DNA of 44,235 nucleotides from Holosporaceae bacterium. Its GTDB lineage: Bacteria; Pseudomonadota; Alphaproteobacteria; UBA3830. Positions 25,906-29,237 of the stretch are shown here, piece after piece. The position numbers and the translations under genes were made by a program. How positions within the stretch are numbered: position 1 is the first letter of the stretch; each line of letters starts with the position of its first letter. The stretch spans positions 1 through 44,235 of the forward strand of contig JAIRMQ010000013.1 in NCBI GenBank assembly GCA_031258575.1, given 5' to 3'. The notes beneath the pieces are model-generated. The model was not told the DNA's origin, did not search any database, and saw nothing but the letters and a program-made list of their open reading frames with translations.

Positions 25906-27702
25906 ATGTCAAAGAATATGCTGATAGACTCAGCTCATTTGGAAGAAATTAGGGTTGCAGTAGTTGATGGAGATAAGTTAGATAAATTTGTCCTTGAGAC
26001 TTCTTCAAAAGCGCAAACAAAAGGAAATATTTACTTAGCTAAAATCATTAGAGTAGAGCCGTCTTTACAAGCAGCTTTCCTAGACTATGGAAATGAAAAA
26101 CATGGTTTTTTAAGCTTTAGTGAAATACATCACGATTATTTCCAGATTCCAGTAAACGATCGTCAAGATTTAGAAGAACACATTCAAAATGCTACTGCTG
26201 CTTTAACCGGGGAAACTGGGGAATTAGAAGGGGAAATTGATCCGAGAGAAATTTCTAGAATTAGATATCAGTTTTATCAACGATACAAAATCCAAGAGGT
26301 TATCAAAAAAAGACAAATAATGCTCGTTCAAGTTATGAAAGAGGAAAGAGGAAATAAAGGAGCGGCTCTGACTACTTATATTTCTTTGGCTGGACGATAT
26401 TGCGTATTGATGCCTAATACATCAAAAGGAAGTGGAATTTCCAGAAAAATAGGGAATCAGGCTGATCGAATGAAATTAAAAAAAATTATTGCAGACCTTC
26501 GTATCGAAAATGGCAGTACGGTTATTCGCACTGCAGGTATTGGACATACTAAAGCGGAAATTATAAAAGATTTTAATTATCTAAAAACACTATGGAACGA
26601 AATAAGAGAAACAACTCTGAAATCTACAGCCCCGTGTTTAATTCACGAAGAGGCAGGAATAATAAAACGCGCTATTCGTGACTTGTATTCTAGAGATATA
26701 GAATCGATTTTTATTGAAGGAGATGAGGGATATAGAATTGCAAAAAATTTCGTAAAGAAACTAATGCCGAATCATGCGAAGAAAGTAAAGTTATATGAAG
26801 ATAAAAAGCTTCCTCTTTTTAGTAAATTCAAGGTTAATGACCAGATAAATCAGATCTATTCAACAAAGGTTGATCTACCTTCTGGAGGATATTTAATAAT
26901 TAATACAACAGAAGCTCTTGTTTCCATAGATGTAAATTCGGGAAAAGCAACGAGAGAGAGAAACATTGCTGAAACAGCTTTAAAAACTAACCTTGAAGCA
27001 GCAGTGGAAATCGCTCGCCAGTGTCGTCTTAGAGATATCGCTGGGTTAATAGTAGTCGATTTTATCGATATGGAAGAGAAAAAAAATAACACTCAAGTGG
27101 AAAGAGCATTAAGAGATGCCTTGCGAGATGATAAAGCCAAGATTCAAATTGGAACAATTAGTAGTTTTGGACTATTAGAGCTTTCAAGACAGAGACTGAG
27201 ATCCAGTATCACCGATATCAATATGGCTTCTTGTCCTCATTGTGGAGGAAGCGGACTTGTTTGGTCCGATGAATCGATAGCTCTTCAAGTTTTGAGGAAA
27301 ATAGAGGAAACAGCCGCTGTGATAGAAGAGGAAGTTGTAGTTACTCTATCGGCAGAAACTGCATTGTATTTAATGAACCAGAAACGCTCTTTTATTTCTG
27401 AGGTAGAAAAAAAGTCAAAATCGAAAATAGTTTTTAAAATAGATCGTCTAGCATCGGTATCAGATTTCAAAATAGAGTCTTCAGTCTATAATATCAGCGA
27501 GGAAGAACGAAAAAGGAAAGCAAAAGAAACTACGCATCTTTTGAAAAATAAAGATACCTCTCCTGAAAATGTATCTAATTCTGAGCAGGGTGGTAGTATT
27601 ACTGAAGAATTGCCAGATAATAGTTTAAAAGTTTTTTCGGTCCCTTCCAAAAAGAAAAAAAAAACAAAATACAGGGAAAGGAAATACCAGCAGGAAAAGT
27701 AG
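25906..27702 (+). CDS. rne: ribonuclease E/G (uninterrupted frame; see extended frame to 27893)
   Basis: This is the endoribonuclease that processes rRNA and tRNA and starts mRNA decay. An S1-type RNA-binding region (about 35-165) is followed by 5'-sensor and DNase I-like domains. The catalytic metal ligands are Asp342 in IDVNSGKA and Asp385 in VVDFIDME; the zinc link is Cys443/Cys446 in ASCPHCGGSG. The frame ends at 598 residues in a Lys-rich tail just after a run of ten A (27655-27664). A -1 shift within that run opens 76 more codons ending at 27893, with GGWWKKLL near the C-terminus, the GWW motif that binds PNPase in alphaproteobacterial RNase E. The functional product may therefore have about 662 residues. 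A strong promoter lies at 25683. Confidence 0.93.
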   Translation: MSKNMLIDSAHLEEIRVAVVDGDKLDKFVLETSSKAQTKGNIYLAKIIRVEPSLQAAFLDYGNEKHGFLSFSEIHHDYFQIPVNDRQDLEEHIQNATAALTGETGELEGEIDPREISRIRYQFYQRYKIQEVIKKRQIMLVQVMKEERGNKGAALTTYISLAGRYCVLMPNTSKGSGISRKIGNQADRMKLKKIIADLRIENGSTVIRTAGIGHTKAEIIKDFNYLKTLWNEIRETTLKSTAPCLIHEEAGIIKRAIRDLYSRDIESIFIEGDEGYRIAKNFVKKLMPNHAKKVKLYEDKKLPLFSKFKVNDQINQIYSTKVDLPSGGYLIINTTEALVSIDVNSGKATRERNIAETALKTNLEAAVEIARQCRLRDIAGLIVVDFIDMEEKKNNTQVERALRDALRDDKAKIQIGTISSFGLLELSRQRLRSSITDINMASCPHCGGSGLVWSDESIALQVLRKIEETAAVIEEEVVVTLSAETALYLMNQKRSFISEVEKKSKSKIVFKIDRLASVSDFKIESSVYNISEEERKRKAKETTHLLKNKDTSPENVSNSEQGGSITEELPDNSLKVFSVPSKKKKKTKYRERKYQQEK

Positions 27703-27893
27703 AGGATTTTCATGGTTTTATCACAAAGGTAACGAAAGCTTCGAAAGATGTTATTCTCAATGTACCGCAGAGTGATAATTTACTAAGTCCTAAGCCGGAA
27801 ACAACTCTCAGAAGTTCTGGAACCAAGAAAGAAAGGAAAAAAGGCGGATGGTGGAAAAAATTACTGAAAAAGGTCGACGTATTTGAGGAGTAA
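27655..27893 (+). other. rne: A10 slippery tract and out-of-frame C-terminal extension of rne
   Basis: Ten A residues (27655-27664) follow TCC AAA AAG in frame. Read with a -1 shift (or one extra A), translation continues from AAC at 27663 for 76 codons without a stop to TAA at 27891-27893. The extension is polar and ends with KKERKKGGWWKKLLKK then an acidic tip, as expected for the PNPase-binding end of RNase E. The gltX ATG at 27894 follows this TAA directly, and GAGGAG inside the extension is the gltX ribosome site. Three explanations fit: polymerase or ribosome slippage on the tract, a recent frameshift mutation, or a homopolymer sequencing error. Confidence 0.75.
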
Positions 27894-29237
27894 ATGGAGA
27901 AAGTCCTAGTTAGATTTGCGCCGTCTCCTACGGGGCTATTGCACGTTGGAAATGTGCGTATAGCTCTTTTCAATTATCTTTATACAAAAAAGAATGATGG
28001 GAAATTCATTCTAAGAATAGATGATACAGATCGAGAAAGATCTACGCAAGCTTTTGAAGATTTTATCTTCGAAGATTTAAAATGGCTTGGTATACAATGG
28101 GACGAAGTCTATAGACAGTCGGATAACATTGAGAAGTATCAAAAAGCGATAGATTATCTAAAAGAAATTGGACGCGTATATCCTTGTTATGAAAAGAAAG
28201 AAGAACTTTCTTTAAAAAGAAAAATACAAATTTCTACCGGAAAAGCACCTGTATATGATCGAGCAGCTCTTAAAATGTCCGGGGAGAAAAGAAAAGAACT
28301 CAAAAATGCAGGAATAAACCCTTATTGGCGGTTTAAGCTAAATGATTCTGAAATAGCTCAATGGAATGATTTAGTTCATGGAGAAGTATCGATACCTCTC
28401 AACAGCGTTAGCGACCCCATTCTAGTAAAACCAGACGGATCGTTTGTCTACGCATTTGCATCGGTTGTAGATGATATAAACATGGGAATAACCCATATTA
28501 TTCGTGGAGACGATCATATCACCAATACTGCAGTACAGATAGACATTTTCAAAGCGCTGTCTGGAAAAATTCCGGATTTTGCTCATATTCCTTTATTGTC
28601 CTCGTTAGATGGACAAGATGTTTCCAAAAGATCTGGCTCTTCATTAAGCGTTGGAAACATGAGAAACGAAGGAATTGAAGCAAGAGCCATTGTCTGCATC
28701 TTGGCGACGCTAGGAACTTCGGATAACGTTTGTGCCAGCGACAATTACGATTCGCTTATAAATAAGTTTTCTTTCGGGAAAATAAGTCTTTCACCTCCTA
28801 AATTTAATTTGGAAGAGGCTAAAGCTTTAGCGAAGAAAATCCTAGGGACAAAAACTTTCAGCGAAGTAAAAAGCAGCCTAGAAAAAATGAATTTAGAAAA
28901 TATTTCAGAGAAGTTTTGGTATACAATACGAGAAAATCTATCATCCTTACAAGACGCGGTTCTCTGGGACAAAGTTTTATCTGATAAAAACATCGCAGTA
29001 AAGGAAGATAAGGTATTCGTTGATCAAATGCTAAAAAGTTTACAATATCCTTTTAATTTCGATCAATGGATTAGTGATTTAAAACAGATTTCCAATAGAA
29101 AAGGAAAAGACTTATTTCATCCTATTCGATTAGTTTTAACTGGTATTGATCATGGTCCGGAATTAAAAAAAATAACTGAACTAATGGGATATGAACGGGT
29201 AAAAAAAAGAATAGAGAGTAACCTAACGACTGAATAA
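27894..29237 (+). CDS. gltX: glutamyl-tRNA synthetase
   Basis: This class I synthetase charges tRNA(Glu) and, with GatCAB in the same window, probably also tRNA(Gln). The HIGH-type motif is in RFAPSPTGLLHVGNVRIALF, the DDTDRERS segment follows, and the KMSKS-type loop is GQDVSKRSGS. The anticodon-binding helical domain occupies about 320-447. Length 447 is slightly short but in the range of the family. It starts directly after the stop of the extended rne frame, with GAGGAG at 27885-27890. Its last base is the first base of the cysS ATG (TAATG). Confidence 0.96.
   Translation: MEKVLVRFAPSPTGLLHVGNVRIALFNYLYTKKNDGKFILRIDDTDRERSTQAFEDFIFEDLKWLGIQWDEVYRQSDNIEKYQKAIDYLKEIGRVYPCYEKKEELSLKRKIQISTGKAPVYDRAALKMSGEKRKELKNAGINPYWRFKLNDSEIAQWNDLVHGEVSIPLNSVSDPILVKPDGSFVYAFASVVDDINMGITHIIRGDDHITNTAVQIDIFKALSGKIPDFAHIPLLSSLDGQDVSKRSGSSLSVGNMRNEGIEARAIVCILATLGTSDNVCASDNYDSLINKFSFGKISLSPPKFNLEEAKALAKKILGTKTFSEVKSSLEKMNLENISEKFWYTIRENLSSLQDAVLWDKVLSDKNIAVKEDKVFVDQMLKSLQYPFNFDQWISDLKQISNRKGKDLFHPIRLVLTGIDHGPELKKITELMGYERVKKRIESNLTTE

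Follow-up and report, generated by a model that had tools for sequence, protein, structure and literature searches.

An apparent one-base break at an A10 tract of rne places the predicted PNPase-binding tail of RNase E out of frame in a Holosporaceae bacterium

We analyzed a window of 44,235 nucleotides (the whole stretch of DNA under study), which is contig 41 of a Holosporaceae bacterium genome assembled to 874 kb in 47 contigs (95% complete, 36% GC). The close relatives of this genome are Holosporaceae and Alphaproteobacteria MAGs, several of them from ruminants; going by the relatives only, the source genome of the window presumably belonged to a gut symbiont. The window carries rne, the gene for RNase E, directly upstream of gltX, with the following features.

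25906..27702, + strand: rne zero frame, 598 aa, catalytic part intact, C-terminus TKYRERKYQQEK and then TAG
27655..27664, + strand: A10 tract, with G27654 before it and C27665 after it, within a lysine run of the linker
27657-27663, + strand: slippery heptamer A AAA AAA, inside the A10 tract
27663..27893, + strand: tail displaced to the -1 frame, 76 sense codons followed by TAA at 27891-27893
27700..27702, + strand: zero-frame stop TAG of rne, derived, with 191 nt untranslated up to gltX
27843..27866, + strand: GGWWKKLL, predicted PNPase-binding motif, part of the tail profile match described below; motif function from PMC3376730
27885-27890, + strand: GAGGAG, ribosome-site-like, for gltX, within the last codons of the rne tail
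27894..29237, + strand: gltX, glutamate--tRNA ligase, ATG at 27894, next gene of the conserved rne-gltX pair

The zero frame of rne retains the RNase E/G catalytic domain, matching TIGR00757 over residues 14-464 (E 2.3e-156) and PF10150 (E 3.3e-98). In the window sequence, the A10 tract reads in phase as the lysine codons AAA AAA AAA, and the -1 reading from 27663 runs AAC AAA ATA ... GAG GAG TAA. Translation of the slipped RNase E product predicts 662 aa. GGWWKKLL is absent from the zero frame and is encoded in the -1 frame only; the tail peptide that would carry the predicted PNPase dock is KKGGWWKKLLKK. The tail stop TAA adjoins the gltX ATG with a gap of 0. A preliminary description of this DNA had placed the end of rne at 27702 and the A10 tract at 27655-27664, and every one of these coordinates is borne out by the sequence. 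It had further proposed that a -1 shift opens 76 codons, with GGWWKKLL near their end and a TAA at 27891-27893 touching the gltX ATG, and we find the same.

Scoring codon usage over 27666-27890, we obtained +19.6 bits for the tail frame, while the true genes of the genome gave 23.5 ± 7.4 bits and the other two frames of the same region -63.0 and -50.2 bits. Within the genes of the genome, only 0.2-0.4% of 75-codon stretches read out of frame are free of stops. We also made a profile from the rne tails of 26 relatives. In the six-frame translation of the whole genome, the single significant match to this profile was the tail frame (19.6 bits, E = 0.0011); the second-best match had E = 2.5. The tail frame contains neither an internal stop nor a second indel. 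Moreover, the gap between rne and gltX is 191 nt when measured from the short stop vs 0 from the tail stop. Since the codon usage is gene-like, the profile match is the sole one, and the rne-gltX spacing is restored, the -1 tail is genuine displaced coding sequence. The codon usage and the profile match, along with the in-frame tails of the relatives, thus uphold the earlier proposal that RNase E has had its PNPase-binding end displaced into this tail, and the frame is lost exactly at the A10 tract, as proposed too. We searched all 76 codons of the tail frame for ATG, GTG, and TTG and found none. Thus, ordinary initiation cannot produce the tail separately, and a separate start for it was rejected. 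The nearby ATG that follows GAGGA at 27701-27713 lies in a different frame.

Complete rne is a single open frame of 665-974 aa in 32/32 other family genomes. The rne genes of G010, G026, G027, and G035, which are cut, and of G028 and G064, which are broken at other sites, were left out as uninformative. The C-terminal motif of the complete family rne is GWW in 29/32, with AWW in G008, SWW in G014, and GLW in G001 as near variants. The in-frame tail that the preliminary description had suggested looking for in relatives is therefore carried by all 32 complete genes, and its refuting case, a relative with the same short stop and no tail, occurs in 0/32. Among the family rne compared, the short stop and an A tract of this kind at the site are both absent from every relative, and this frameshift is missing from all other species compared. 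The distance from the rne stop to gltX is -14 to +19 nt in 22/23 relatives that have gltX next. The 32/32 complete genes open to the motif and the tight rne-gltX spacing in relatives together indicate, on sequence comparison, that the short stop is derived and confined to this genome. RNase E identity to the nearest relatives is only about 75%, and in a tree of the catalytic part, the source genome is sister to all other members of its genus, with a branch length of 0.21 changes per site, which bounds the age of the break only loosely.

Two rne genes of the relatives were noted separately. In L193 (G028:C78), the rne frame changes in the catalytic part, distant from any long homopolymer, and this break looks like an assembly error or a pseudogene. 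L009 (G003), from a genus member, carries an A10 at rne codon 612, at a different place in the linker and in frame with the GWW tail; slippage there would shorten RNase E.

The PNPase gene of the source genome, L182 (G000:C21:6077-8110), is intact, scoring 998.7 bits against TIGR03591 and containing no stops. In Caulobacter, the GWW peptide occupies a pocket of PNPase, and deletion of the GWW site led to PNPase being largely lost from RNase E pull-downs, while other partners were kept (PMC3376730). RNase E tails dock PNPase and alter its activity in condensates, and once the GWW-PNPase contact is lost, RNase E condensates no longer stimulate PNPase (PMC10412687). The contact positions V104/I220/E224/F233 of Caulobacter PNPase are H/D/K/V in the source genome. 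Of these residues, H104 and V233 are typical of the family PNPases. In comparison, E224 is present in 32/37 family genomes and is K in the source genome. An acid at position 220 was found in 4/5 genomes without E224 (the source genome, G014, G016, and G062) and in 0/32 with E224, counts that are uncorrected for relatedness. G001 has K at both 220 and 224, and its rne motif is GLW, with one tryptophan lost. Positions 220 and 224 lie about one helical turn apart. This pattern suggests that the acid of the GWW pocket moved from 224 to 220, and that the PNPase of the source genome could still dock the RNase E tail. The loss of E224 as a sign of decayed docking is weakened by the acid at 220 in 4/5 genomes lacking E224. 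We rejected the idea that E224 and motif loss co-vary cleanly, since G016 and G062 lack E224 yet retain an intact GWW.

Performing synonymous resampling, we find that sense-strand A runs of at least 10 in genes number 2 vs 37.6 expected, an avoidance of about 19-fold, and that runs of at least 9 number 28 vs 92 expected. Runs of at least 10 As are thus costly in the genes of this genome. The rne tract is the only A10 deep within a gene of this genome and the longest such A run; the second A/T10 in a gene model sits at codon 3 and probably lies outside the true gene. Under free codon choice, an A10 at the rne lysine run has P of about 0.68, and so nothing special is needed to build it.

As the rne A10 is the only one deep in a gene, the A9/T9 tracts stand as indirect controls for its length. 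For this, we took genes whose G006 homologue extends well beyond the tract, and 11/11 A9/T9 tracts checked against homologues were in frame. Possible frame breaks numbered 3 among the 533 G006 genes matched in this genome. These two results indicate that the assembly is not generally frame-damaged; a general homopolymer error is not evident at A9/T9 tracts. Candidate breaks relative to G006 homologues are at about 1475 of G000:C19 and about 1000 of G000:C25; of these, one is close to an A7 and the other has no homopolymer. Most other tracts with a frameshift-like signature that we inspected were set aside, lacking a convincing homologous continuation in an alternate frame. A short helix-turn-helix, transposase-like ORF at L122:2359-2757, minus strand (G000:C21:22359-22757), ends in an A9 tract, beyond which the -1 frame matches 13 residues of a related protein; this A9 is possibly an insertion-sequence slippage site.

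G/C runs behave differently in number. The source genome has 9 runs of at least 9 vs 0.44 expected, and 3 of at least 12 vs about 0. The runs of 9-13 include, among others:

C20:5579-5591: G/C run (L085)
C25:4377-4388: G/C run (L090)
C47:8960-8972: G/C run (L111)
C44:19348-19357: G/C run (L181)
C19:12844-12852: G/C run (L084)

These are possible phase-variable (contingency) loci, and the gene that holds one of the runs encodes an RcpC/CpaB pilus-assembly domain.

The explanation we propose, at about even confidence, is that the A10 of rne is a genuine one-base frameshift partly rescued by RNA-polymerase slippage. The ancestral rne would have given a single RNase E of about 660 aa, with a C-terminal GWW docking PNPase. 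The A run in the linker lysine stretch would then have altered in length in this lineage, such that DNA-encoded translation would end at 598 aa and the 76-codon tail would be left in the -1 frame. The catalytic half is unaffected, and the cell would retain RNase E activity. RNA polymerase would add one A (or lose two) at A10 in part of the transcripts, and ribosomes may occasionally slip -1 there as well. A minority of full-length, PNPase-binding RNase E would probably still be produced. The sequences establish the layout of the locus, the descent of the tail, the restriction of the break to this genome, and an intact PNPase gene; we infer the presence of exactly ten As in the DNA, slippage at the tract, and the importance of the product.

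Slippage on poly(A) corrects 12-50% of transcripts of frameshifted Buchnera and Blochmannia genes (PMC5009743), and eight genes of Blochmannia vafer carry frameshifts of this type (PMC3017870). In A/T runs, most changes are single-base insertions, which become exponentially more frequent with run length (PMC5574713). Partial rescue is thus expected from the length of the A10 run, and the slippage that the preliminary description invoked is biochemically expected at such a tract (PMC5009743, PMC5574713). However, in a genome-wide Buchnera transcriptome, no indel was found to restore a frame (PMC5574713), which weakens the case for slippage rescue of rne. Docking in the full-length RNase E would be less secure owing to the replacement of PNPase E224 by K, which the acid at 220 may offset. 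The loss of mismatch repair was rejected as the cause, as mutS and mutL are present in the genome. Searching the literature on rne with slippage, we found nothing relevant.

The live question is whether rne carries a real frameshift with leaky rescue or whether its tract was miscounted, and we treat the miscount as a serious rival, although a less probable one. The preliminary description had itself listed a sequencing error and a fresh mutation as alternatives, and both keep some probability. In that case, the length of A10 would have been miscalled, or strains differing in tract length collapsed, and the real rne would be intact and ordinary. The A10 is the longest A run deep in any gene, the kind of place most prone to errors in reads and assembly; all relatives have an intact rne, the tail is without decay, and the rne breaks of the G028 and G064 family MAGs look like assembly trouble. 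Against a miscall, the informative A9/T9 tracts are 11/11 in frame, few frame breaks occur elsewhere, and an in-gene A11 would depart even more from the avoidance of A runs. A recent real truncation with no meaningful rescue is unlikely in our judgment. The PNPase-docking tail would then be lost and soon decay, a loss that would be tolerated because RNase E catalysis remains. This reading is consistent with Caulobacter RNase E without the GWW site, which largely lost PNPase and kept its other partners (PMC3376730), with the loosened motifs of three relatives (GLW in G001, SWW in G014, and AWW in G008), and with the changed pocket residue E224 in the source-genome PNPase. The tail, however, has acquired neither a stop nor a second indel, and its codon usage is gene-like. 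Some slippage is hard to avoid at A10, and docking may persist, as PNPase combines D220 with K224 here and G014, G016, and G062 likewise pair an acid at 220 with a WW tail.

A programmed, regulated -1 frameshift or a phase-variable switch setting how much short relative to long RNase E is made is very improbable. The A AAA AAA heptamer at 27657-27663 is in the correct phase for it, the docking of PNPase by RNase E tails changes PNPase activity in condensates (PMC10412687), and the site would divide a shorter from a longer product much as in dnaX. However, the RNA downstream of A10 folds no better than shuffled sequences (z = 0.35), no Shine-Dalgarno-like stimulator is found in 27640-27654, the short stop and any similar tract at the site are missing from all relatives, and the presence of mutS and mutL lowers the expected replication slippage. 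A conserved programmed shift site was rejected, being unshared by relatives and without a stimulatory structure. For the same site, we give scarcely any credence to a maintained tunable device in which slippage sets the fraction of RNase E with a PNPase dock, as in dnaX; if true, heterogeneous transcripts, and not gene dosage, would control degradosome composition. The preliminary description had the tract deciding how much RNase E binds PNPase, which is not supported for a site that is unshared, lacks stimulators, and is known from a single genome. Of its two products, the slipped 662-aa form is indeed predicted, while regulation through two isoforms is unsupported.

Returning to the frameshift with leaky rescue, the rne case joins the known poly(A)-tract frameshifts, provided that the DNA is right. 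Like those of Buchnera and Blochmannia, it concerns an AT-rich, host-associated genome in which an otherwise intact, conserved gene breaks once, at an A tract about 10 long, and keeps its downstream frame. Unlike there, where such runs are abundant, this 36% GC genome strongly avoids A runs of at least 10; one such gene was found here, the break spares the catalytic domain, and the case is known from the DNA of one genome. With Caulobacter RNase E (PDB 4AIM, 4AID), the gene shares the catalytic part, the linker, and the terminal basic GWW peptide, and PNPase is present, whereas the GWW motif falls in the -1 frame here. Across the family, most of the PNPase contact positions given in PMC10412687 carry residues other than those of Caulobacter, and E224 is K in this genome. 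The likeness to dnaX tau/gamma lies in an A-rich slippery site that parts a short product from a long one with a partner-binding tail. In dnaX, the zero frame gives the long product, and the site has stimulators. In rne, the zero frame gives the short product, stimulators are absent, and the site is unshared by relatives.

If the tract was miscounted, a single MAG homopolymer can hide a degradosome component. With the short stop in place, the 191-nt untranslated gap upstream of gltX could lower gltX expression. If the A10 is real, the break leaves catalysis intact and endangers partner docking alone, and the poly(A) frameshifts described in insect endosymbionts would gain a case in RNase E and in a Holosporaceae-like lineage. 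The locus would then be a natural test of the need for RNase E-PNPase coupling in a reduced genome.
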